In this document: positions 6,870-49,018 of the stretch, one piece after another | How the letters are laid out: the number at the start of each line of letters is the position of its first letter | Position numbering within the stretch: the first letter of the stretch is position 1 | NCBI GenBank assembly: GCA_017309115.1 | Contig: JAFLEF010000055.1 | Span: 1-49,195 of the forward strand | Direction: 5' to 3' | Source of the DNA: Verrucomicrobiota bacterium | GTDB taxonomy: Bacteria > Verrucomicrobiota > Verrucomicrobiia > Limisphaerales > UBA9464 | DNA: 49,195 nucleotides | The notes under the pieces: generated by a model | Databases searched by the model: none | Told to the model about the DNA's origin: nothing | What the model saw: only the letters and a program-made list of their open reading frames with translations | Position numbers and translations under genes: made by a program

Positions 6870-8411
6870 ATGAAGACCATTGAATCTTTCGGGCGTCCGG
6901 CACTGCCGGCGATGAATTTGGGGCGAAGAGGCACATTCCGCTGGGGAGTGTCGACCGTTCTGGGATTGAGCGGGCTTTTGCTGCCCGTGGCGGCCCAGGA
7001 TTTCTTTCCGAGCGTCAATCCGTTTGCGGTCCCGCAGGATCCTGCCTTGCAGCAGGAACTGCAGGAGAATCGGATGATGAAAGCGCTTGAAAGCCAAGCG
7101 ATTGCGGCCAGCAAAGGATCCCAGCTTGGCAATTACAACATCAAGCTGGGGCCAGTGTTGGCCTGGTTTCGCGCGGGCTTGATGTTCCGCTACCAAAGCA
7201 ACTTCAACCTGGTCAGCAGCGACAACCCCTCGGCCGCTCCGGAAGGCAATTTCACCATCGGTCCGGCGATCTCCGGCAGTCTCCGTTATGACATTTCCGA
7301 GAAGGCGCGAATCGTGCTGAGCACGGGTTTGTCATATCAGTGGAGCCTCAACAACAATCAAGATCAGTTGGTCATTTCGCCGTCGTCGGCACTGGATTAC
7401 CAGTTCTCGATCGGCGAGGTGAACTTCTCGGTGTTCAACAACACCGCCTCGGCGAGCACGGCCACGACCGATCCGACGATCAGCGGTACCGGGGACTCGT
7501 CCCTGATGAATTTCAATCGGGTGTCCAACAGCACCGGCATGGGGGCAGGCTGGCAACCGTACCGGGACACGACCGTCTCGGGTGCCTACGCGTTCCTGAT
7601 CAATCGCGGTCTGGGGAACGACAACTTCAATCAGTTCAACCGGAACACGCAGACGTTCAATTTGGCAGTACAGCAGGCGCTCAGTCCGGTTTGGACCGTC
7701 GGTTTGTCGAGCCAGGGGAACATCATCAACTACCTCCCCATTTCGATTCAGACGTCAACCAATGCGCCCGCGACTCAGCAGCGGGTGCAGAACGACAGTC
7801 ACGGTTGGGGTGTTGGGCCGACTGCCACCTGGCGAGCCACGCAGTTCATCGTGGTCAACGCGCTGGTCAATTACACGGTCCAGACGTACGAACAGGATTC
7901 GGTGGTGCAAGACTCCACGGATTTTTCTGGAGTGACGTTCAATGTGTCGATGGACCACACCATCAACCCGTACTTGTCGCAGACCATTTCGGGTGGCCGC
8001 TCGGTCAATCCGGGAAACGGCAGCAATTTCACGGAGATCACGACGATGGGATATCGGCTCCAGTGGCAGATCATGCCGGTGCTCGCCCTGACGGGAACAT
8101 TTCGATTCAATCAGTTCGATCAGTCGGGAGGGGGATTCGCCTATTTTCCGTACGTACCGGGAGCTCCGCTGCCGCCGAATTTCGCGTACATCACCGACGA
8201 CGACATCGTGGTCGTCAAGGTGGCCAATGGACAGCAGGGCCAGCAGTATGTGTTCACGCTGGGAACTGGTTACGATCTGAGCGAGAAGTTGAGTCTGGGG
8301 GTCAATTACAGTGTGGCCATCAGGGACACGACCAATCAGTCAATCGACAACGTCATTTTCGGTAGCTACCTGACGCAGAGTGTCGTTGTTTCACTGGCTT
8401 ACAAATTTTAG
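6870..8411 (+). CDS. Outer-membrane beta-barrel protein of the polysaccharide export cluster
   Basis: 513 residues from ATG 6870; the upstream in-frame ATG at 6786 gives an unconvincing N-terminus without a signal. From 6870 a signal peptide ends near LLLPVAAQ. The mature chain is a run of amphipathic beta strands with alternating polar and aromatic residues, rich in Asn/Gln/Ser turns. It finishes VVVSLAYKF, the terminal Phe being typical for the BAM insertion signal. Five bases separate its stop from the Wza-like gene. This order (barrel, export protein, Wzz-kinase) resembles exopolysaccharide loci, so it probably forms or supports the outer-membrane exit for a polysaccharide; that is inference. 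Confidence 0.8.
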   Translation: MKTIESFGRPALPAMNLGRRGTFRWGVSTVLGLSGLLLPVAAQDFFPSVNPFAVPQDPALQQELQENRMMKALESQAIAASKGSQLGNYNIKLGPVLAWFRAGLMFRYQSNFNLVSSDNPSAAPEGNFTIGPAISGSLRYDISEKARIVLSTGLSYQWSLNNNQDQLVISPSSALDYQFSIGEVNFSVFNNTASASTATTDPTISGTGDSSLMNFNRVSNSTGMGAGWQPYRDTTVSGAYAFLINRGLGNDNFNQFNRNTQTFNLAVQQALSPVWTVGLSSQGNIINYLPISIQTSTNAPATQQRVQNDSHGWGVGPTATWRATQFIVVNALVNYTVQTYEQDSVVQDSTDFSGVTFNVSMDHTINPYLSQTISGGRSVNPGNGSNFTEITTMGYRLQWQIMPVLALTGTFRFNQFDQSGGGFAYFPYVPGAPLPPNFAYITDDDIVVVKVANGQQGQQYVFTLGTGYDLSEKLSLGVNYSVAIRDTTNQSIDNVIFGSYLTQSVVVSLAYKF

Positions 8412-8416
8412 ATCAT

Positions 8417-9109
8417 ATGAAGACCATTAGGACAGTCGTTTTGTTGGGGTTGTTGGTGTGGGGGAGGGTTCAGGCGCAGGCGCCGGCGGACGCTGCCAGC
8501 ACGACCAACCGCGCCGCCAAAGAGTACTTGTCCTCCACCGCTCTGGATGCCGAGAGCCGGGAATTCAAGCCGGGAGACACCTTTCAGTACGTAGTCGAAC
8601 AGGATCCCGCGCCGGATAAGTCTCCGGTGGCCGTGCGGGTGAGTGATGCCGGGGAGGCGATTTTCCCGGTGAGCGCCGGCAGCACCCTCTACGTCAAAGT
8701 GGATGTTCGGAACCTGAAACTGGCCGAAATCCGGAAGAAGGTGAAGGAACTCCTGGACGAGGAGTATTACAACGACGCGACGGTGCGCTTGGAGTTCATG
8801 CTGGCCAACCGGACGCCCAGTGCGAATGAGAATCTCGCGCGTGTCCAGGTTTATGGCGAAATGCAGGGAACCGTTCCTCTGCCTGAAGGCGAGACGAAAC
8901 GCATTTCCGATGCCTTGATTGGACTTCCCCGCAGTCAGTTCGCCGACTTCAAGCGAGTTCGCCTCCATCGGATCGATCCCCTTACCGGCAAGACCGAGAT
9001 CAAGGTCATCAACGTGGACAAGATCTTGAAGGACGGTGACCGGACCAACGACGAGATCCTCAAGGACGGCGACCGCATCGAAGTCCGTCCGCGAACCTTC
9101 AATTTCTAA
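8417..9109 (+). CDS. Polysaccharide biosynthesis/export protein (Wza-type, short)
   Basis: 230 residues with a signal peptide (MKTIRTVVLLGLLVWGRVQA). Residues about 50-135 match the poly-export domain: FKPGDTFQYVV, an ISDAG-like turn (VRVSDAGEAIFPVSAG) and the LKLAEIRKKVKELL helix followed by ATVRLEF. Residues about 140-228 look like one SLBB-type domain (VQVYGEMQGTVPL, then ILKDGDRIEV near the end). It lacks the lipobox and C-terminal amphipathic helix of full-length Wza (about 380 residues), so the pore may be supplied by the barrel encoded just upstream. It lies five bases before the co-polymerase/kinase gene, a standard pairing for capsule or exopolysaccharide export. Confidence 0.85.
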   Translation: MKTIRTVVLLGLLVWGRVQAQAPADAASTTNRAAKEYLSSTALDAESREFKPGDTFQYVVEQDPAPDKSPVAVRVSDAGEAIFPVSAGSTLYVKVDVRNLKLAEIRKKVKELLDEEYYNDATVRLEFMLANRTPSANENLARVQVYGEMQGTVPLPEGETKRISDALIGLPRSQFADFKRVRLHRIDPLTGKTEIKVINVDKILKDGDRTNDEILKDGDRIEVRPRTFNF

Positions 9110-38950: not shown

Positions 38951-41749
38951 ATGGCGCAAGGGCGGGGATCCAAGAAGCACACGAGTGGCTCCAGGAATGG
39001 CGAACTCCAGGTCCCACCGGACCACGATTGGCGCAGTACCGACTCGGAGGAAATCGACCGCCGCCGACAGCGCGCCCGCGACGAGCGGATGCGCATTGCC
39101 AATCTCACCCCGGAACATCCGGTTTTCTCGAATTTCGAGGTTCACTCGGGCAGTGGCCGGAGCTACCAGGTCGAGATTCGCGATGTGTCGTCCCGTGAGT
39201 TCGCGTGCGATTGCGTGGACTTCCGGTCCAATGGACTCGGCACCTGCAAACACGTCGAGGCTGTCCTGCTCTGGCTCCAACGTCGGCACCGCCCGGCCTT
39301 CCGCCAAGGCGTCCTCACCGGATCCGACCGACTGGAACTCCTCGTGGATCGCGAACGCGGTCAGCTTTTCCTGAGGGCTCCAAGCAACCTCCAAATACCT
39401 CAGAGCCTCTCTCGATGGTTCAATCCCAACGGCACCCTCCGAGGGGACGATCCCCACGCCGCCGTCCAGGCCTGTCAGAAGGTGGCGGCTGATCGGCCAG
39501 CCCTTCGAATCTCCCTGGAAGTGGCCCCATGGCTCGAACTGAATCGACGCCGGGAAGAAAGCATCGCGGCCCGCCGGGAGTACGAAGCCCGCGTGCAGTC
39601 CGGCGAATGGCCGCCGCAGGAAACGCTCGTTCCACTGCTGCCCTACCAGCGGGCGGGAATGCTTCACCTCGCCTTCCGCGAGCGGGCGCTGCTGGCGGAT
39701 GAAATGGGCTTGGGCAAGACGATTCAGGCCATCGCCGCCTGTGCCTTGCTTCACCGTCTGGGCCGCGCTCGGCGCGTTCTGGTCGTCTCACCGGCCTCGC
39801 TCAAAGCCGAATGGGAGGAACAGATTCGACGGTTCACTCCGCTCTCCGCCCGACTGGTGTTCGGACATCATCTCGCGCGAAAGAAACTCTATCGCCAGTG
39901 CGCCGCGGGTGAGGACAACGCGTTCTTCATTCTCACCAATTACGAACAGGCGGTCCCCGATCTCGAGATCATCAACTCCGTGCTCCAGCCGGACGTCATC
40001 ATTCTCGACGAAGCCCAGCGCATCAAAAACTGGAACACCAAAACCTCCCGACGCATCAAGCAGCTGCAGAGCCGTTACGCCTTCATCCTCACCGGGACAC
40101 CCATCGAGAACCGGATCGATGAGCTGCGTTCCCTCGTGGATTATCTCGATCCGGCGGTCCTCGGGCCCTTGTTCCGGTTCAATCGGGACTTCTACCAACT
40201 GAACGAACGCGGCCGCCCGGTCGGTGTGCGCAATCTCGACGCGCTCCACCGCCGCGTTCAACACCTGTTGTTGCGCCGCCGAAAGTCGGAGGTCGCCAAC
40301 GAACTGCCCACGCGCACCGACCATCATCGGTTTGTCCAACTGACTCCCAAGCAGCGGACCGCCTACGCCAGCCATGAACAGGAGGTCATGATTCTGGCCT
40401 CCCTGGCCGAGCGTCGGGCGCTCACTCCGCGGGAGCAGGATCAACTGCAACGCGAACTCGCGATGATGCGGATGATCTGCGACACCAATTTCATTCTCGA
40501 TCCCAAGGACCGCGAGTGTCCGAAATTGACGGAAATTGCCCGCATTCTCGAAGACAGTGCCGCCGAGGGATCGAAGGTCATCGTGTTCTCCGAGTGGGAA
40601 CGAATGCTCGAACTGGTCCGAGACTATTGTCGCGACCACGGCCTGGATTGCGCCTGGCACACAGGCTCGGTCCCACAGCAGAAGCGCCGCGCCGACATCA
40701 ACCGCTTCAAGGAGGATCCCCAATGCCGGGTCTTTCTCTCCACGGATGCCGGAGCCACCGGCCTCAATCTTCAGGTCGCTTCCGTCGTGGTGAACTGCGA
40801 CCTGCCGTGGAATCCGGCCCGGTTGGAGCAACGCATCGCCCGCGCTTGGCGGAAATTCCAAACCCAGGCGGTGACGGTGATCAATCTGATTTCCGAGGAC
40901 ACGATTGAACACCGCATGTTGGAGACGCTGGCGACCAAACGCAGCGTGGCGGAAGGGGTGCTGGACCGTCCCGGAGAGATCACCTCGGTGGTGTTCCGAA
41001 AGTCCGCCAAGGACACCGCCGACCGTCTCCGCAGCCTGACTCGTCGGGACGGTGAGGCGGCTCCGGCGCCCAAAGTCTCTTCGGCTCAGCCCCGCGATGT
41101 CCCGCGCGAGTTTGCGGCCCGTCTGAAACAACAGTTCGGCCCGCAGGTACTGAGCTGTGAAGAATGCCAACCAGTCGCCGGGGGACCTCCCCGGATCCTG
41201 GTCGTAGTCCAGCATCCGGGATCCGTCCTGACTCCGAGTTTCGACGGGCTTCGCGAGAGCCACTTTCCTGTTGGGGAGAGCGGGACGCCTTCCTGCGACG
41301 TGGAGGTGATTGACCGTGCGACGCAGGAGGCGATTGAACGGTTGGTGAAGGCGGGTCTGCTCCAACGGGTCGAAGGGGTCCGGCGCGATCTCTTGGCGGC
41401 GGAAATCGCGCCTCGGCCCCTGACTGACGAGGAGCAAGCGCGCCGAGACGCGGCTGCCGTCCGGGCGGAGCGACTGCTTCGGCGGGCCCAGGTACTGGGT
41501 GAGGCCGACTTCCCGGAGGAAGCCGCGGCGAGTCTTCGGGAAGCCCTGCTGCCGATGGCGATTGCTCGCGCCATCGGAGAACGCTGGCCGGTCCCAACGA
41601 ATGATCAGGATTTGCTAAAGGACCGTTGGATCACCACGTGGGGATCGGCCTATCTTACCGTGCAGCATGTGCTCGCCGGGACCGTTGCCGACCCCGCCGC
41701 CGCCCGAGTCATCCTGACAACCTGGATGTCCCAGTCTTCCGGGCTCTGA
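38951..41749 (+). CDS. SNF2-family helicase with SWIM zinc finger
   Basis: 932 residues. A SWIM finger, CxCx10CxH, uses C86, C88, C99 and H101. The SNF2 ATPase has motif I DEMGLGKT (250-257), motif II DEAQ (353-356; usual DEAH), LTGTPIENR (motif III) and, in the second lobe, STDAGATGLNLQ and NPARLEQRIARAWR (motifs V/VI). It should translocate on double-stranded DNA with ATP. A C-terminal region of about 230 residues after the helicase core (from about 690) has no recognised fold. No partner such as a methylase or nuclease gene is adjacent, so involvement in repair, transcription recycling or defence is open. It stands alone between two gene-free gaps. Confidence 0.9.
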   Translation: MAQGRGSKKHTSGSRNGELQVPPDHDWRSTDSEEIDRRRQRARDERMRIANLTPEHPVFSNFEVHSGSGRSYQVEIRDVSSREFACDCVDFRSNGLGTCKHVEAVLLWLQRRHRPAFRQGVLTGSDRLELLVDRERGQLFLRAPSNLQIPQSLSRWFNPNGTLRGDDPHAAVQACQKVAADRPALRISLEVAPWLELNRRREESIAARREYEARVQSGEWPPQETLVPLLPYQRAGMLHLAFRERALLADEMGLGKTIQAIAACALLHRLGRARRVLVVSPASLKAEWEEQIRRFTPLSARLVFGHHLARKKLYRQCAAGEDNAFFILTNYEQAVPDLEIINSVLQPDVIILDEAQRIKNWNTKTSRRIKQLQSRYAFILTGTPIENRIDELRSLVDYLDPAVLGPLFRFNRDFYQLNERGRPVGVRNLDALHRRVQHLLLRRRKSEVANELPTRTDHHRFVQLTPKQRTAYASHEQEVMILASLAERRALTPREQDQLQRELAMMRMICDTNFILDPKDRECPKLTEIARILEDSAAEGSKVIVFSEWERMLELVRDYCRDHGLDCAWHTGSVPQQKRRADINRFKEDPQCRVFLSTDAGATGLNLQVASVVVNCDLPWNPARLEQRIARAWRKFQTQAVTVINLISEDTIEHRMLETLATKRSVAEGVLDRPGEITSVVFRKSAKDTADRLRSLTRRDGEAAPAPKVSSAQPRDVPREFAARLKQQFGPQVLSCEECQPVAGGPPRILVVVQHPGSVLTPSFDGLRESHFPVGESGTPSCDVEVIDRATQEAIERLVKAGLLQRVEGVRRDLLAAEIAPRPLTDEEQARRDAAAVRAERLLRRAQVLGEADFPEEAAASLREALLPMAIARAIGERWPVPTNDQDLLKDRWITTWGSAYLTVQHVLAGTVADPAAARVILTTWMSQSSGL

Positions 41750-41871
41750 GTCCCTTGAAACCCTCCCGCCGTACCAGGTTTGCAACGTGCTGCGATGGGG
41801 GGTGGAAGATCAATCCGGTTGCGAGGGCTGCCACGATCTCGTCGTCAACGCCGGTACATCCTAATCAAGAA

Positions 41872-41924
41872 TCTGCGACAACCTAGGTGGAGTCTGTGGA
41901 TCAACATCCGCTAAATGTCGCAGA
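41872..41924. repeat. Spaced 9-base inverted repeat
   Basis: TCTGCGACA (41872-41880) and TGTCGCAGA (41916-41924), 35 bases apart, with a CCTAGG between. Either a long-loop stem or a two-site protein-binding region. Confidence 0.35.
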
Positions 41925-41950
41925 GAGGACGTGACCAAGGTGTGGTGAAA

Positions 41951-41985
41951 TCCGGGAAAAGAGTGCCCCTCTTGTCCTTCCCGGA
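41951..41985. repeat. Hairpin TCCGGGAA...TTCCCGGA
   Basis: TCCGGGAA (41951-41958) pairs with TTCCCGGA (41978-41985). Inside, AAGAG can pair with CTCTT, with a 4-base bulge. There is no T run, so it is more likely a structured leader or a repeat than an intrinsic terminator. Confidence 0.35.
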
Positions 41986-42091
41986 GTTTGGCGGATTCAG
42001 GTCCCCCGATTTCCCGTTCAATTCCTGTAAGGTTCGGATCGGAGGCCCGACCCCCTCGGGGACGGTGGTCTTCCCGCCGCCCTCCTGCTTT

Positions 42092-42637
42092 ATGAACTTC
42101 GCTCGCATCTCCCGTCTGTTCCTGGTGTCGTGCTGGATCGAACTCAGCGTGCTCCTGGCGGCCAATCCACCTTCCGACTTCACTCTGAAAGCGCCCGTCA
42201 CGGGCCAAACTTTTCGTCTCTCCGAGGCCAAGGGCAGTTACGTCGTGCTTCAATTCCTGCTCAAAACCGAATGCCCGGTCTGCCTCCGACACACCCGAAG
42301 CCATTTCCTCAACGCCGAGAAGCTGAAGGGGACGATCCAACTGTTTATCAAGCCGGACGGAACCGAAGCCCTCACCGCGTGGGCCCGGGGACTCGGACCG
42401 GAACCGTCGCCGGTCATTTATCAGGATCCGGGTGCGGCACTCGCGACGGCGTTCTCGATTCCCGACGGCTATTCCTTCCACGGAGAGACAGTTCACTATC
42501 CGGCCCTGCTGATTCTCGATCCCCAGGGCCGTGAAGTCTTCCGTTACGTGGGCAAGGACAACTCCGACCGCTATTCCGTTAAGCAGCTCAATCAGAAGCT
42601 TGCGGAACTTCAGGCCAATTCGAAGGATCAACCATGA
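42092..42637 (+). CDS. Exported redoxin-like (thioredoxin fold) protein
   Basis: 181 residues from ATG 42092, the first codon that gives a signal peptide (MNFARISRLFLVSCWIELSVLLAA). The mature part follows the AhpC/TSA-redoxin pattern: DFTLKAPVTGQTFRLSEAKGSYVVLQFLLKTECPVC. C61 and C64 form a CPVC motif, then come LILDPQGREVFRYVG and a C-terminal helix. It may act as a thiol reductase or peroxidase outside the cytoplasm. The spacing of 58 bases to the DinB gene leaves it uncertain whether it belongs to the next operon; direction and order would permit it. Substrate unknown. Confidence 0.8.
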   Translation: MNFARISRLFLVSCWIELSVLLAANPPSDFTLKAPVTGQTFRLSEAKGSYVVLQFLLKTECPVCLRHTRSHFLNAEKLKGTIQLFIKPDGTEALTAWARGLGPEPSPVIYQDPGAALATAFSIPDGYSFHGETVHYPALLILDPQGREVFRYVGKDNSDRYSVKQLNQKLAELQANSKDQP

Positions 42638-42695
42638 CCCGTGCGACCGGTAAACCCTTGAACTCCGCCAACCCTTGTTTCGCTCAAGTGCCGTC

Positions 42696-43274
42696 ATGAC
42701 GACCATTCTTCACGAGGGTGATTTGAGCTCCCCGACGGATCATTCGAACCGAATTCTAATGGCGGCGGTGGGACTCCTGCGACAGGGAGAGGACCTGCTG
42801 TCCACCCTGAGCCCCGACCGCTATTCCCAAAAGGTCCGGGTGGCTTTCAATGGATCGATTGGCGGTCACTATCGGCATTGTCTAGATCACTTCGCGAGTC
42901 TGCTGGCTGGGCTTGAGAGTGGTGTGGTGGATTATGACCGGCGGGAACGCGATGCCCGGGTGGAGGCCGATCCGGGCCGAGCCCGCGACCTGACGCTGTC
43001 CCTTCGGCAACAGTTGGAAGCCCTGGAGCCCGGGCAGTTACTCACGCCGGTTTGGTCGCGTTGTGAAGAGAGTTATGTCCCTGGGGATTCACCGCTCACC
43101 CGTTCCACCATGGGTCGGGAGTTGGTGTATGTCATCGCCCATGGAATTCATCATTACGCTCTCATCGCGGTGATGGCCCAGGTCCTCGAGGTTCCGCTGC
43201 CGGCCGAGTTCGGCGTGGCTCCCTCCACGCTGGAGCATATGCGGTCGCGGTTGACCGACGGAGTCGGAGCATGA
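42696..43274 (+). CDS. DinB-fold metal-binding protein
   Basis: 192 residues from ATG 42696; the in-frame ATG at 42675 would only add seven residues. The DinB/YfiT four-helix pattern is seen: an N-terminal helix with LLRQGEDLLSTL, then GGHYRHCLDHF carrying histidines 58, 61 and 65 (one of them a ligand), and VYVIAHGIHHYALI with H149 and H153, the usual second and third ligands. Members use the metal site for thiol transfer, maleylpyruvate isomerisation or unknown reactions. Its stop overlaps the ATG of the DedA-ATP-grasp gene (ATGA at 43271-43274), so the two are translationally coupled. Confidence 0.82.
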   Translation: MTTILHEGDLSSPTDHSNRILMAAVGLLRQGEDLLSTLSPDRYSQKVRVAFNGSIGGHYRHCLDHFASLLAGLESGVVDYDRRERDARVEADPGRARDLTLSLRQQLEALEPGQLLTPVWSRCEESYVPGDSPLTRSTMGRELVYVIAHGIHHYALIAVMAQVLEVPLPAEFGVAPSTLEHMRSRLTDGVGA

Positions 43275-44926
43275 CGGATCCCGCGGGTTTGCCCGGGGCA
43301 TTTACGGAATGGCCTCCCTGGGCTCAGGCCACCGCCCTTGGTTTGGCTACCTTTGTTCAGGAGGACATTCCCACCGTAACGGCGGCGCTGTTGGCGGCTA
43401 CCGGACAGTTGCCGTTGTGGGTGGGCTTTCTGGGCTGCTTCCTCGGAATTTGGATCGGGGACGCATTGTTATACGGTGCCGCTCGGGGTTTGGGACGGCC
43501 GGTACTTGAACGTCCCTGGACCCGGCGATGGGTCACCGCGGAATCCGTGGCCCGCAGTGAACGGTGGTTCGCGGAGAAGGGAACCTGGCTCCTGCTGAGC
43601 AGTCGGTTCATTCCGGGAACCCGTTTGCCGACGTATCTGGCGGCGGGGTTTCTGCGGTTGTCCTTTCCGCGCTTCCTGATCGTGACGGGCGTGGCGGTGG
43701 CGGTCTGGACCGGGTTGTTGTTCGGATTGGCCCACATACTCGGCGCACAGTTGCGCGGCTGGTTGGATCGCTGGAATTCGGTCCTGATTTGGTTGGTCCT
43801 GGGTGCAGTTCTGATCGGTGGGGTGCGCTGGCTGGTTTCGGCGCTTCAACCCGGCTGGCGTCTTCGTGGGTTGGCCGCTTGGAGTCGCTGGCGGCATTGG
43901 GAATTCTGGCCGGCTTGGCTGTTCTATTTTCCGGTGGAAATCTGGTACGTCGCCCTGGCCGTTCGACATCGGGGACTGACGGTGCCGACCGCCGCCAATC
44001 CCGGCATGGAAACGGGCGGGTTTGTCGGCGAATCGAAGTTTGCCACCCTGCGAGACTTGCAGGAGACGAGCCCCGAGTTCACCGCGACAGCGGGTCTGCT
44101 GCCGGCTGGATCGACGCCTGCTGATCGGTGGGAACGGCTGCGGAATTGGATGCAAACGTCGGACTTCGATTGGCCCGTCATCCTGAAGCCTGACGTCGGG
44201 CAGCGCGGAATGGGCGTAAAGGTGATTCGCAGTGACGCCGACGCGCGCCAGTATCTGGAGCGTTCCCCCGGGGCAATTGTGATGCAGCAGTACGTTCCGG
44301 GTCCGCGGGAAGTGGGGATTTTCTACTATCGCTTTCCCCACGAGACGAAAGGCCGGATCTTTGCCGTGACGGAGAAGATTTTTCCCGAACTAACGGGAGA
44401 TGGCGTTCACACCGTGGAGGAGCTCATTTGGCGGGATCCCCGGGCGCGCTGTGTGGCGGAGCGGTATCTGACTCGATTTGCGACGCGAACCCGGGAGGTT
44501 CTGCCACGCGGTGCGACCCTCCGGTTGGTGGAAGCGGGCAACCATGCCCAAGGTTGCATTTTTTGCGATGGCGGGCGCTTCCGGACCGCGGAACTGACCG
44601 ACCGCATCGATACCATCTCCCAACGCCTCACCGGATTCTTTATTGGGCGTTACGACGTGCGGTTCGCCTCGGAAGACGATTTGCGGGCGGGGCGGAACTT
44701 CCGGATTCTGGAACTGAATGGGGCGGCGGCGGAAGCCACCCACATTTACGACGCCCGCAATACCCTATGGTCGGCCTACCGAACGCTCTTTGAGCAATGG
44801 AGTCTGGTGTTTGCCGTGGGTGCGGCCAATCGCGCCCGCGGGATTCAACCCGATCCTCCCGCGAAATTGTGGCGAACGTGGCGCGCGGCGCGAAGCTTGT
44901 ACACCGCCTATCCTCCGGCGGATTGA
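43271..44926 (+). CDS. DedA-family membrane domain fused to a C-terminal ATP-grasp ligase domain
   Basis: 551 residues. Residues about 20-190 form a DedA/VTT domain: FVQEDIP with acidic E31-D32, GCFLGIWIGDALLYGAARGLGR with D64, and SRFIPGTRLPTYLAAGF with arginines R112 and R118 (the F/Y-x-R-x3-P-x2-R motif of DedA proteins), then helices to about 190. A tryptophan-rich linker (205-235) precedes an ATP-grasp domain at about 240-515: VILKPDVGQRGMGVKVI with K306, VMQQYVPGPREVGIFYY, GRYDVRF (460-464) and LELNGAAAEATHIYD, where E481 and N483 are expected Mg ligands. It should join a carboxylate to an amine or thiol at the membrane. I do not recall this fusion as a described family. The DinB gene overlaps upstream and the NRDE gene follows after four bases. 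Confidence 0.85.
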   Translation: MTDPAGLPGAFTEWPPWAQATALGLATFVQEDIPTVTAALLAATGQLPLWVGFLGCFLGIWIGDALLYGAARGLGRPVLERPWTRRWVTAESVARSERWFAEKGTWLLLSSRFIPGTRLPTYLAAGFLRLSFPRFLIVTGVAVAVWTGLLFGLAHILGAQLRGWLDRWNSVLIWLVLGAVLIGGVRWLVSALQPGWRLRGLAAWSRWRHWEFWPAWLFYFPVEIWYVALAVRHRGLTVPTAANPGMETGGFVGESKFATLRDLQETSPEFTATAGLLPAGSTPADRWERLRNWMQTSDFDWPVILKPDVGQRGMGVKVIRSDADARQYLERSPGAIVMQQYVPGPREVGIFYYRFPHETKGRIFAVTEKIFPELTGDGVHTVEELIWRDPRARCVAERYLTRFATRTREVLPRGATLRLVEAGNHAQGCIFCDGGRFRTAELTDRIDTISQRLTGFFIGRYDVRFASEDDLRAGRNFRILELNGAAAEATHIYDARNTLWSAYRTLFEQWSLVFAVGAANRARGIQPDPPAKLWRTWRAARSLYTAYPPAD

Positions 44927-44930
44927 TCGC

Positions 44931-45662
44931 ATGTGCTCCGTGACCTTTTGGCCGCGCCCCGACGGTTACCTTGTCGGTATGAACCGGGACGAACTTCGAA
45001 CTCGGGTTCCCGGCAATCCCCCTCGGCGGTACTTCGACTCCGGAGTCACAGTCGTTCATCCCGCGGAACCGTCCGGTGGTACCTGGCTGGCTTTGAATGA
45101 TCGCGGGGTAACACTGGCGCTGATCAACTGGTATGCCATCCCGGAGCGCGCCGCGGAGCCGGTCGTGTCCCGTGGGGAGGTCGTGCGGGCGGTACGTTCA
45201 GTGACGGAGTTTGAGCAGCTTTCCCAGGGATTGGCGGATTTGCCTTTGGACCGCATGAATCCGTTTCGGTTACTGGCGTTTCTTGGGGAGTCCACGGCCG
45301 CCTGGGAAGGACGCTGGAATCGACGGCGTTGGGAGTGGTTGCGCCATCCCTGGGAGGCGGCCCAATGGCAGTCCTCGGGCCACCTGGAAGCGACCGCGCA
45401 GGAAGTTCGCGGCGCAACCTTCGCGCGGCATCGGAATGACCGGGATGCCGGCACAGTGCCGTGGCTGCGGCGTCTGCATGGTTCCCATTTGCCAGGACGG
45501 GGACCCTTCTCCATCTGCATGCACCGGGCGGATGCCCAAACCGTGAGTTACACCGAAGTGGAGGTCGAGGAGTCTTCGGCCACCCTTCGCTACTGTCCGG
45601 GTTCCTTGTGTGAAGGTCGGCCGCTGGCGGCGATGGAGCTGAAGCGGGAGGGGAATCGCTGA
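44931..45662 (+). CDS. NRDE/TANGO2 family protein
   Basis: 243 residues from ATG 44931, four bases after the upstream stop. The start is firm because the family needs Cys at position 2 (MCSVTF) and the NRDE motif, here GMNRDE with N18, R19, D20, E21. Further family marks are HPAEPSGGTWLALNDRGVTLALINW and, near the end, GPFSICMHR. Bacterial and human members have been linked to Ntn-hydrolase-like folds, and TANGO2 to haem or lipid handling (family knowledge, partly debated). An enzyme acting on a product of the adjacent DedA-ATP-grasp protein is conceivable but unproven. A repeat tract begins at the stop codon. Confidence 0.85.
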   Translation: MCSVTFWPRPDGYLVGMNRDELRTRVPGNPPRRYFDSGVTVVHPAEPSGGTWLALNDRGVTLALINWYAIPERAAEPVVSRGEVVRAVRSVTEFEQLSQGLADLPLDRMNPFRLLAFLGESTAAWEGRWNRRRWEWLRHPWEAAQWQSSGHLEATAQEVRGATFARHRNDRDAGTVPWLRRLHGSHLPGRGPFSICMHRADAQTVSYTEVEVEESSATLRYCPGSLCEGRPLAAMELKREGNR

Positions 45663-45710
45663 GAGCTGAGAGACCGGAAGAGAGAAGCGGGTAAACGGGA
45701 AGCGGTAAGA
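45661..45710. repeat. GAGAGCTGAGAG / GCGGGTAAACGGGAAGCGG repeat tract
   Basis: It begins within the TGA of the NRDE gene and continues to 45710. It carries the same units as 12673-12783, which supports a dispersed family. Confidence 0.5.
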
Positions 45711-45805
45711 CGGTGGGGCGACGCTCCACGGAACCGTTCGTGCGTGGACTTCAGACGCGTCCTTTCAACGAGAGGCGGACGGCTCCGCGGAGCGTCGCCC
45801 CACCG
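45711..45805. repeat. 95-base element with 17-base perfect terminal inverted repeats
   Basis: CGGTGGGGCGACGCTCC (45711-45727) and GGAGCGTCGCCCCACCG (45789-45805) are perfect inverted repeats around 61 bases. It lies between the end of the NRDE gene and the DUF1080 gene. It could be a MITE-like element, a large RNA hairpin, or a bidirectional terminator for the convergent genes. No transposase and no target duplication could be identified. Confidence 0.6.
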
Positions 45806-45833
45806 GGTTGAGGTCTCACCAAACCACTCTTTT

Positions 45834-45861
45834 CCTTACCGCTTGCTTCTTGCCCTTCCCC
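45834..45861. repeat. Reverse-orientation CTTACCGCTT-type repeat
   Basis: CCTTACCGCTTGCTTCTTGC and a short pyrimidine-rich continuation abut the stop codon of the DUF1080 gene. It looks like the complement of GCGGTAAG/GAAGCGG units at 45686-45710; a similar tract is at 38853-38880. Confidence 0.4.
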
Positions 45862-46650
45862 TCAGTCCAAAGGTCGGATCCAGAGGTTGCGGAACTCCAC
45901 GGGACATCCGTGACCACTCAGGGCGATCGGACCGCGGGGGACAGCGCGCGTGGGATCGGGAACGACCCGATGCCCGATGGCGCCGTAAATAATGGCGTTG
46001 TGGTGAACGAGCACACCGTTATGAAACACGGTCACTCGGGGAGGTTCTGTCTGGACGCCGTTGTTGAATCGGGGGGCGAAGAAGATGATGTCAAAAGTCT
46101 GCCACTGACCGGGAGGACGCGTGACGTTCACCAGGGGTGGTGTTTGAGCGTAGATGGCGGCGCACTGGCCATCCGGGTAGATCGGCTCGTTGTACGAATC
46201 GAAGATCTGGATTTCGTAGAGTCCATGGAGCAGGACGCCATTGTTACCGCGGTCACCCCAGGGGCCGACGAAATTGGTCGGCCCGCGAAACTCGACATGG
46301 AGTTGGAAGCTTCCGAAGTCGCGCAGGGTCTTCGGCGAACGATCTCCGGCGGTGACCCACACACCGTCGCGAACCTGCCACGTCGAAGGAGCCCAGTTCG
46401 AGAGACTGCTGCCGTCGAACAGGACCAATGCATCGGCGGGCGGCGGAACGGGCGGTCCGGGTGGGCCGGGATCCACCTTGGGCGGGGCCGGCCGATCGGG
46501 ATCATGAACCAACCACTCGCACCAGGGCAGTTTGGGCGTGTCCTTGTAGCCATACACCCCGGAGCCGCTCTTGGCCTTGACCAGTTCGGCGGCGCTGGCG
46601 GTAAGGGCGAGTGAGGTCGTGAATAGCAGGACGGAAGCGAGACGGTTCAT
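45862..46650 (-). CDS. DUF1080 (3-keto-disaccharide hydrolase) domain protein, secreted
   Basis: 262 residues from ATG 46650, where MNRLASVLLFTTSLALTASAAE is a good signal peptide; the longer frame to 46803 adds 51 non-signal residues. After a linker rich in Pro (PPKVDPGPPGPPVPPPAD) comes the DUF1080 jelly-roll: DALVLFDGSSLSNW, FGSFQLHVEFRGP, DRGNNGVLLHGLYEIQIFDSY, GQWQTFDIIFFAPRF, RVTVFHNGVLVHHN and the closing PIALSGHGCPVEFRNLWIRPL. PVC bacteria carry many such proteins, linked to 3-keto-sugar metabolism or polysaccharide breakdown. A long upstream region (46651-46832) is divergent from the barrel gene. Confidence 0.9.
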   Translation of the reverse strand: MNRLASVLLFTTSLALTASAAELVKAKSGSGVYGYKDTPKLPWCEWLVHDPDRPAPPKVDPGPPGPPVPPPADALVLFDGSSLSNWAPSTWQVRDGVWVTAGDRSPKTLRDFGSFQLHVEFRGPTNFVGPWGDRGNNGVLLHGLYEIQIFDSYNEPIYPDGQCAAIYAQTPPLVNVTRPPGQWQTFDIIFFAPRFNNGVQTEPPRVTVFHNGVLVHHNAIIYGAIGHRVVPDPTRAVPRGPIALSGHGCPVEFRNLWIRPLD

Positions 46651-46832
46651 GACGGTGAGTGGAGGTTCCGCGATACGGCAGTGATCAAAGGATGAGAACC
46701 ATCGTCGCGCAATGGACGGACCGCTCGTTTTCATCGGCGGCTCTTCTGCTCTCGATCGTTGGTCCCAAAAACGCTGGGTTGCTTCTTGGGTAAATCCACC
46801 CACGTTCCCCCCTTCTTAAATTGAAATAAACC

Positions 46833-47938: not shown

Positions 47939-49018
47939 TTACTTGGCGTCGCCCTGCGGATATCCCTGCCACACCCAAATCAAGGCGTCGGCGAGGGTCT
48001 GTTGGAAGACCCGGCCGTCGCAATGGCCGGAACCCAGACTGAACACAAACCGAAAGGAATATCCCTTGGCCTTCAACGCGGCCGCGGTGCGTTTCCCGGC
48101 CATAACCCAGTTGTGGTAGCTGTTCTCCGGCGAGTTGGCGCCATTATCGCGGTCTGAGACGTGTGTGAAGATTCGCAACGGCTTCCGGTCGCTGGTCTCA
48201 ATGAGCTTCAGCCCGGAGTGGTACTCCCACGCGCCGAGAGGAAACTGGGTTTCCTCCGGGGCGTCGTCGTCCTGCTGATCCACAAAGGTGCCCGAGTACG
48301 CCAGGATTCGCCGGAAGAGGTCGGGCCGAAACCAGCCCATGGTCAGCGCCGCCGCCCCGCCGGACGAGCAGCCCAGTACGGCGCGCCCCCAGGGATCGTC
48401 GGTGAGCGCGAAGTTCGGATACACTGCTCGGATGGCTGGGTCGTTGACCACGGCCGGCAACACTTCCTCCTGAATGAATCGCGCCAGGCGATCAGACATC
48501 GTGTCGTACTCCAGTCCCCGTTCGCTTCCCTTGCTGTCGTCGCCGCCGTTTTCCACGGCGATGGCGACAAACGCCGGCAGACGTCGCGCGGAGTTCGTGG
48601 AGCTGGTCAGGTTGTCCAAGGCGTTTCGCACCAGCGGAAGTTGGCCGGGCCCATCGTGAATGATGAGGAACGGGGCCTTCGTCCCATCCCGATAAGCCGC
48701 CGGAACGTAGACGAAGATGCGGCGCTCTTTGCGGACAGGACGGCGTTGCGGTTCGAGTGTGCGGTCGGTGCCGGGGAAGATCTTGCTGTCGGCCAGGCGC
48801 ATCACGAATTCGAACGCTCGCCCCTTCGGTTGGCCGCGATCCGTTAGGTCGGGATCAACCGAGTACTCCGGTCCCACGGTAAACTCGCCGTCGGCCAGGG
48901 GTAGGGGAGTGACCGCAGCCTCGGCGGCCGGACAAGGGATCGGGCGGAACAGGCCCACCAGAAGGAGCGCCGCCAAAACCGTGAAGCGAAGCGAACCCGA
49001 AACGAGGAACGGCATCAT
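47939..49018 (-). CDS. Secreted esterase (enterochelin esterase-like alpha/beta hydrolase)
   Basis: 359 residues with a signal peptide (MMPFLVSGSLRFTVLAALLLVGLFRPIPCPAA); ATG 49015 is an alternative start. Esterase family features: RIFVYVPAAYRDGTKAPFLIIHDG, the helix FIQEEVLPAVVNDPAIRAVYP, and the nucleophile elbow GCSSGG with S218. Candidate acid and histidine are in HVSDRDNGANS and GSGHCDGRVFQ near the end. Such enzymes (Esterase_D family) hydrolyse carbohydrate or feruloyl esters, siderophore esters or simple esters; no specificity can be read. It would act in the periplasm or outside. Isolated by position. Confidence 0.85.
   Translation of the reverse strand: MMPFLVSGSLRFTVLAALLLVGLFRPIPCPAAEAAVTPLPLADGEFTVGPEYSVDPDLTDRGQPKGRAFEFVMRLADSKIFPGTDRTLEPQRRPVRKERRIFVYVPAAYRDGTKAPFLIIHDGPGQLPLVRNALDNLTSSTNSARRLPAFVAIAVENGGDDSKGSERGLEYDTMSDRLARFIQEEVLPAVVNDPAIRAVYPNFALTDDPWGRAVLGCSSGGAAALTMGWFRPDLFRRILAYSGTFVDQQDDDAPEETQFPLGAWEYHSGLKLIETSDRKPLRIFTHVSDRDNGANSPENSYHNWVMAGKRTAAALKAKGYSFRFVFSLGSGHCDGRVFQQTLADALIWVWQGYPQGDAK

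Follow-up and report, generated by a model that had tools for sequence, protein, structure and literature searches.

The enzyme part of MprF is a tRNA-dependent transferase. In the papers cited here, each for an excerpt of its text, MprF is described as pairing a lipid-modifying enzyme with its own flippase (PMC11980842), the Ols pathways of acyl-amino-acid lipids as two acylations followed by hydroxylation, methylation and transamination (PMC11631085), and the DedA protein PetA as a transporter of phosphatidylethanolamine (PMC12893004), so that a DedA protein moving a lipid with an amino headgroup has a precedent. The excerpt of PMC11631085 mentions neither DedA nor DinB nor NRDE as a partner, and cites an ATP-grasp enzyme only for the acyl-histidine of Legionella; the route to flavolipin or glycine-serine dipeptide lipid in Bacteroidota is called unknown (PMC10191378). 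Here we describe a locus of a Verrucomicrobiota bacterium (contig JAFLEF010000055.1 of assembly GCA_017309115.1; the whole analysed stretch of 49,195 nucleotides is referred to as the window), where a protein fusing a DedA (VTT) membrane domain to an ATP-grasp ligase module is encoded between the genes for a DinB-fold protein and a protein of the NRDE/TANGO2 family (Table 1).

On balance, and with modest confidence, we read this unit as the putative modification-and-translocation arm of an acyl-amino-acid lipid pathway, that is, as an MprF-like ligase–flippase. One polypeptide would combine a lipid-modifying enzyme and a lipid-translocating domain, hence the fusion may work like MprF without being a member of its family: no match to the MprF transport or synthase domains was found in it with Pfam or NCBIfam, its enzyme part is an ATP-grasp module, and its neighbourhood points to aminolipids and not to phosphatidylglycerol. 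Homologues of OlsB, OlsA and OlsF, known from the OlsBA, OlsF and GlsBA systems, share operons with the fusion in relatives, although the neighbouring proteins score under the equivalog cut-offs. With UptA and PetA the protein shares the VTT domain and its conserved acidic and arginine residues, but its DedA part is fused to ATP-grasp. The nearest solved relatives of the latter, cyanophycin synthetase and glutathione synthetase (GshF), differ in that the module described here is fused to a membrane domain and lacks polymer-type partner domains. Flavolipin resembles the kind of product proposed below, an aminolipid carboxylate bearing a second amino acid; however, the ATP-grasp part is present in 23 of 118 Bacteroidetes-type genomes, and nothing here ties the family to flavolipin. 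As a lipid-modifying enzyme fused to its flippase, the family would represent a known kind of system and would not be categorically new. No description of a DedA/VTT–ATP-grasp fusion or of a link between ornithine lipid and DedA was found in openly licensed PMC papers, where the one match to DedA, ATP-grasp and fusion together is a cyanobacterial genome paper, and a description may exist elsewhere; in the same collection, none of the matches listed linked DinB with ornithine lipid, aminolipid, TANGO2 or NRDE.

Two domains of the fusion protein

The three open reading frames were confirmed at the positions given by the initial annotation, all on the plus strand. As it had also noted, the DinB stop and the fusion start share the ATGA at 43271-43274, and four bases separate the fusion stop (44926) from the ATG of the NRDE gene (44931).

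The membrane domain of the fusion is recognized by Pfam (VTT_dom, PF09335, 67.8 bits at residues 38-152; cut-off 33.9). The residues singled out in the initial annotation are conserved among 80 aligned proteins: E31 in 76, D32 in 78, D64 in 79, R112 in 77 and R118 in 79. We take the acidic pair, D64 and the two arginines to be the marks of DedA proteins. Plain UptA was considered as an identity for the protein and rejected, as the NCBIfam UptA model yields 46.9 bits at a cut-off of 250.

From the single sequence, Pfam recognizes the ATP-grasp part only weakly (RimK, 15.9 bits, below the cut-off of 21). A profile of 59 relatives makes it clear in a comparison with the PDB, the best matches being cyanophycin synthetase (3.2e-8) and glutathione synthetase (2.3e-7); the match spans the ATP-grasp core only, approximately residues 294-486. 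By profile, the module would clearly sit among the carboxylate-amine ligases, with nearest solved relatives of the peptide type. In the same set of 80 proteins, the residues of this part named in the initial annotation are conserved, K306 in 80, E481 in 78 and N483 in 78, and K369 and D462 are both kept in all 80. The family has its own lead-in to the module, WEFWP...FTAANP..GESK, and carries K256, K306, Q339, E347, K369, D462, E481 and N483. The conserved lysine, aspartate, glutamate and asparagine residues of the module are presumably those binding ATP and metal. The AlphaFold2 model of the entire fusion, built with 59 aligned sequences, has a mean predicted local distance difference test score (pLDDT) of 94.1 and a predicted template modelling score (pTM) of 0.80.

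Clustering with aminolipid genes

The family was sought in 387 genomes of the phylum of the window, many of them draft assemblies, with at most a few candidates scored per genome. The fusion has matches at 1e-10 in 60 of these. Genomes with a best E-value below 1e-35 were considered family-bearing (n = 38), including three whose genes are broken or frame-shifted (G074, G375, G121); the other 22 comprise 21 with plain DedA genes and one with decayed fragments (G223, E 2.8e-21). The ATP-grasp part of the family-bearing genomes is fused to DedA in 35 and stands alone in three (G091, G339, G363). A scan of species genomes yielded 57 loci, mainly from Verrucomicrobia, the other taxa being Planctomycetota, Acidobacteriota, Thermoanaerobaculia, Rhodothermaeota, and a 'Bacteroidetes' and a 'Rickettsiales' metagenome assembly. 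Two further phyla were sampled: the family occurs in 19 of 189 Planctomycetota genomes (the phylum of locus L075), and among 118 Bacteroidetes-type genomes (the phylum of L076) we observed ten fusions and 13 stand-alone ATP-grasp genes.

Genes were assigned to OlsB, OlsA or OlsF by Pfam (Acetyltransf_5, Acyltransferase) and by the best NCBIfam models, below the equivalog cut-offs; the searches were run at E 1e-6 for OlsB and 1e-20 for OlsF, and each fetched locus extended about 6 kb to either side. An OlsB- or OlsF-like gene lies within the fetched locus in nine of the 38 family-bearing genomes (G045, G059, G091, G177, G206, G292, G339, G354, G363), while 0.13 would be expected under random placement (Poisson P 2e-14). 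The same tendency was observed in the other phyla, Ols-like genes being found near the fusion in 11 of 19 Planctomycetota (L075, L165-L173, L177) and in 9 of 10 Bacteroidetes-type loci (all of L201-L209); the contig of the tenth fusion in the latter group, L213, is 5,736 bases long and ends in an OlsA-like gene. Plain DedA genes of the phylum sample served as a control (n = 22, one of them in G045, itself family-bearing): twelve are in Ols-bearing genomes, and none of these twelve lies near an Ols gene on one contig. At the level of whole genomes, OlsB or OlsF was detected in 32 of 38 family-bearing versus 172 of 349 other genomes of the phylum (Fisher 2e-5, kinship uncorrected), and in 10 of 11 hand-picked genomes of other groups.

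In L075 the genes for OlsB, OlsA, DinB and the fusion each overlap by four bases, and in four loci with proteins 60-62% identical to that of the window (L036, L037, L038, L042) OlsB, OlsA, DinB, fusion and NRDE follow in one run. Elsewhere the placement varies: the Ols genes may be upstream, downstream, divergent, convergent or interposed, and may be represented by OlsB and OlsA or by the fused OlsF. The 124 ATP-grasp regions were placed on a FastTree tree, built without a support check and omitting L001, L076, L213 and any locus whose ATP-grasp part is not complete in one frame; on it, the Ols label (37 of 103 scorable loci positive) changes at least 15 times. Thus, the association with Ols genes seems to have been gained or lost many times, and does not reflect a single frozen operon. 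That the operon family belongs to an aminolipid pathway appears well supported by gene order, and the substrates are likely acyl-amino-acid lipids of the OlsB/OlsA/OlsF kind, as the neighbourhood would name them. The initial annotation had guessed that the set could produce and transport, or else alter, a molecule at the membrane that is linked to a lipid or an amino acid, and the recurrent aminolipid neighbourhood argues for this guess.

Partner genes and the modular structure of the locus

Four layouts are seen in the 124 loci: DedA–ATP-grasp, as in the window (n = 56), hydrolase–DedA–ATP-grasp (n = 44), ATP-grasp alone (n = 20), and a hydrolase followed by another membrane segment and ATP-grasp (n = 4). 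The extra N-terminal domain is an alpha/beta hydrolase behind a membrane segment (Abhydrolase_1, 1.2e-28 in L006). Some of the short forms (L003, L005) begin with what looks by eye like a signal peptide. A one-off or chance fusion is ruled out by the recurrence across genomes, and coincidence is excluded as an explanation. The initial annotation had proposed that a fusion found only once, or genes with no conserved neighbourhood, would speak against a system; both the family and its neighbours recur.

The neighbours were counted in 96 loci (L032-L127; 57 from the species scan and 39 from the phylum sample), and the counts are lower bounds, since contig ends cut many loci. DinB was found in 74 and NRDE in 63, and 60 loci have the two together. 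They are not always adjacent to the fusion, NRDE being absent from L201-L209. The same-strand order is DinB–fusion–NRDE in 35 loci, DinB–NRDE–fusion in 23 and fusion–DinB–NRDE in one. OlsA/PlsC-like genes were found in 22 loci, OlsB-like in 21, YHS in 34 and DoxX in 29.

The DinB protein of the window scores just under the Pfam cut-off of 24.8 (DinB_2, 22.3 bits), that of the relative L081 above it (29.3 bits), and the best PDB profile match is a DinB-like protein, at a weak 0.066. Among 57 aligned sequences, H61, H149, H152 and H153 are conserved in all and H58 and H65 in 56; of these histidines, H58, H61, H149 and H153 we take to be a metal site, and the protein is a probable metalloenzyme. 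The NRDE protein is recognized by Pfam (TANGO2, 23.2 bits, cut-off 22.6) and by a profile match to human TANGO2 (8sv7, 1.2e-6), its residues C2, N18, R19, D20 and E21 are each kept in 47 of 48 aligned sequences, and its model has a pLDDT of 94.6.

Both proteins were also searched for genome-wide in the phylum of the window, DinB in 44 chosen genomes. The two subfamilies co-occur, both being present in 28 and neither in 10 of the 38 family-bearing genomes, and of the 349 other genomes no more than 8 have NRDE (Fisher 3e-27). In three genomes without the fusion (G237, G256, G315) we observed tight DinB–NRDE–OlsF or DinB–NRDE–PlsC–OlsB units. Of the 29 genomes whose ATP-grasp is intact, 27 have NRDE (all but G098 and G174), versus one of the nine where it is altered or broken (Fisher P 8e-6). 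Six of the latter form family f11, with hydrolase–DedA–ATP-grasp loci (L116, L118, L119, L120, L121, L122) where N483 is replaced in six genomes and E481 in three, while the checked DedA residues are kept; all six lack NRDE and DinB. The same is true of G074 and G375, in which ATP-grasp is broken, while G121, where the fusion and NRDE are frame-broken, keeps both NRDE and DinB.

DedA without ATP-grasp, alone or as hydrolase–DedA, adjoins an OlsA-like gene (L210:5814-6647, L211:6003-6800, L212:5031-6614), and the 13 stand-alone ATP-grasp loci of the Bacteroidetes type are accompanied by DinB (n = 7), NRDE (n = 6) and YHS (n = 6). Thus, the locus suggests two joined modules, one of OlsB/OlsA and DedA, which would build and move the lipid, and the other of ATP-grasp, DinB and NRDE (with YHS and DoxX), which would modify it. 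Near stand-alone ATP-grasp genes we also noticed two other kinds of genes directly downstream: tandem OlsB-like genes (L117:7078-7869 and 7947-8783) and LysE-type translocator genes (L195:6975-7631, L200:7083-7796).

In the window, a redoxin gene (Pfam AhpC-TSA, 41.3 bits) precedes DinB by 58 bases and shares its strand. Since redoxin–YHS fusions 47-55% identical to the window redoxin are also situated upstream of the set in L035, L038 and L050, it is counted as a probable fourth member of the operon. As a general partner of the family redoxin was rejected: apart from the locus of the window itself, only 4 of 96 loci match it, one of them weakly (BLAST, 1e-3), YHS and DoxX being commoner. Genes for YHS, DoxX-like, Rieske-ferric-reductase, DUF1223 and DM13 proteins recur near the set and suggest a periplasmic redox partner. 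No sigma-70-like promoter site was found in 41750-46000, and terminator-like sites in this region are at chance level. Further out, by eye, a reading frame of 932 aa (38951-41749, plus strand) resembles SNF2/SWIM-type helicases, and two secreted-looking ones on the minus strand resemble esterases (47939-49018) and DUF1080 proteins (45862-46803).

Table 1. Features of the window and redox-type genes near the set in relatives.
Feature	Location	Strand	Basis
Redoxin, AhpC/TSA-type, signal-peptide-like N-terminus	42092..42637	+	Start codon chosen by us; signal peptide judged by eye
DinB-fold protein, 192 aa	42696..43274	+	Open reading frame, Pfam, conserved histidines
DedA/VTT + ATP-grasp fusion, 551 aa	43271..44926	+	Open reading frame, Pfam, profile, conservation, AlphaFold2 model
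DedA/VTT membrane domain, residues ~14-192 (E31, D32, D64, R112, P115, G116, R118)	43310..43846	+	VTT_dom 1.6e-18
ATP-grasp module, residues ~203-524	43877..44842	+	Profile matches and conservation
NRDE/TANGO2-family protein, 243 aa, Cys2 and N18-R19-D20-E21	44931..45662	+	Pfam, profile, conservation, model
Redox-type neighbours in relatives	L036:4639-5235, L042:3287-3721, L043:1211-2251, L043:4087-4872, L190:4012-4443

Possible mechanism and alternatives

The substrate, product, direction and sidedness, as well as what DinB, NRDE and the hydrolase do, are what we infer from these patterns. In the inner leaflet, acyltransferases of the OlsB/OlsA or OlsF type would assemble a lipid whose headgroup has a free carboxylate. 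This carboxylate would then be phosphorylated by the cytoplasmic ATP-grasp module and ligated to an amine, so that the lipid is most likely capped by amidation, either with an amino acid or with some other amine; the DedA domain would pass the capped lipid through the membrane. The N-terminal hydrolase of the long form, on the outer side, may process or transfer the product, while the DinB protein and the NRDE protein may act on the same lipid or on its headgroup precursor. As for sidedness, the lysine and arginine averages are 6.3 for loop 70-100, 6.2 for loop 190-212 and 0.3 for the N-terminus, which suggests that the N-terminus of DedA is outside and the C-terminus inside; in such an orientation ATP-grasp would have access to ATP in the cytoplasm, while the hydrolase would face outward.

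A number of observations weigh against this assignment to an aminolipid pathway or against its details. The helices of DedA in the model are 16-29, 32-43, 49-79, 90-110, 118-127 and 132-192, and the last of them, a single long helix, poorly fits a topology with two segments there; since it does not simply fit, the sidedness is proposed only conditionally. OlsB or OlsF was not detected in 6 of the 38 family-bearing genomes. Aminolipid genes are in any case widespread, 204 of the 387 genomes of the phylum having them, and this, together with the uncorrected kinship, makes the genome-level association weaker evidence. The only OlsB of the window genome is on another contig (C20), outside the cluster, and no OlsA-like gene was found within 13 kb around it. 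The 13 stand-alone ATP-grasp genes of the Bacteroidetes type have no adjacent OlsB, and nine of the 13 genomes hold OlsF elsewhere. The OlsB-like proteins score about 121-149 bits at NCBIfam equivalog cut-offs of 320-350, hence the amino acid is not fixed by the match. In four Planctomycetota proteins (L178-L181), what lies between the hydrolase and ATP-grasp is a membrane segment other than DedA. NRDE is beside none of the nine Bacteroidetes-type fusions L201-L209 and at only 2 of 19 further Planctomycetota loci (L171, L183); its correlation with intact ATP-grasp leans on f11, P being 0.007 when this family is counted once. Finally, the YHS, DoxX and redoxin neighbours are left unaccounted for.

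Several alternatives may be considered. The headgroup could be made first, if cytoplasmic ATP-grasp linked one amino acid to a second one or to an amine, OlsB or OlsF acylated the product, and DedA moved the resulting lipid. We consider this order unlikely: known OlsB relatives acylate single amino acids (PMC11631085), and both the membrane domain to which the module is fused in 35 of 38 genomes and the conserved aromatic lead-in next to it better suit a lipid substrate, even though the nearest solved relatives of the module, cyanophycin and glutathione synthetases, link amino acids. The stand-alone ATP-grasp genes that adjoin DinB or NRDE without DedA (L188-L193, L195) would also agree with it.

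LplT-Aas salvages lysophospholipids, and a comparable cycle may be imagined here, with the outer hydrolase trimming an aminolipid, DedA re-importing the lyso-lipid or headgroup, and ATP-grasp re-ligating it. ATP-grasp is not known chemistry for re-acylation, and 56 of the 124 loci, of the kind to which the window belongs, have no hydrolase fused to DedA–ATP-grasp, so that such salvage seems rather improbable. It would, vice versa, account for the 44 loci with the hydrolase, DedA and ATP-grasp in one chain, and UptA-type DedA proteins are described as returning undecaprenyl phosphate inward (PMC11474028).

The redox-type neighbours could instead indicate an envelope redox or haem module, where NRDE would carry haem or acyl-CoA, DinB would be a thiol enzyme, redoxin, YHS and DoxX would serve periplasmic redox reactions, the fusion would handle a thiol or cofactor, and the aminolipid genes would be adjacent for the sake of regulation. 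In favour of it are YHS and DoxX in 34 and 29 of 96 loci, respectively, redoxin in the window and its fusions with YHS in three relatives, the DM13 and Rieske-ferric-reductase genes near some sets, and reports that bacterial TANGO2 homologues act in haem trafficking (PMC10470608) and that TANGO2 binds acyl-CoA (PMC11867700). It leaves the overlapping OlsB–OlsA–DinB–fusion genes of L075 and OlsA beside lone DedA (L210-L211) unexplained; a haem module was considered as the main role and demoted to an alternative, which we regard as highly improbable. That DedA handles undecaprenyl phosphate in the manner of UptA, with ATP-grasp adding an amino acid to a carrier-linked cell-wall precursor, is hardly credible, as the match to UptA, although it is the best NCBIfam DedA model, is far under the cut-off and the recurrent clustering is with aminolipid genes.

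If the reading as an MprF-like ligase–flippase of acyl-amino-acid lipids is true, an operon that is conserved in several phyla but unannotated would gain a class of function, and the known pathways of acyl-amino-acid lipids would be extended by ligation chemistry and by a dedicated flippase. TANGO2-like and DinB-like proteins, whose biochemical roles are disputed or unknown, would be tied to one pathway, in which their substrates may be sought. A bolder extension, improbable in our view, is that fusions of ATP-grasp with a flippase, joined in many lineages by a hydrolase on the outer face, produce widespread and as yet undescribed capped or dipeptide-like aminolipids; given DinB, redoxin, YHS and DoxX, the cap could even be a thiol or redox group, forming a membrane-tethered low-molecular-weight thiol at the periplasmic face. 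The family would also provide a defined set of enzymes for testing the origin of dipeptide-type aminolipids, whose route is called unknown in the excerpt of PMC10191378.

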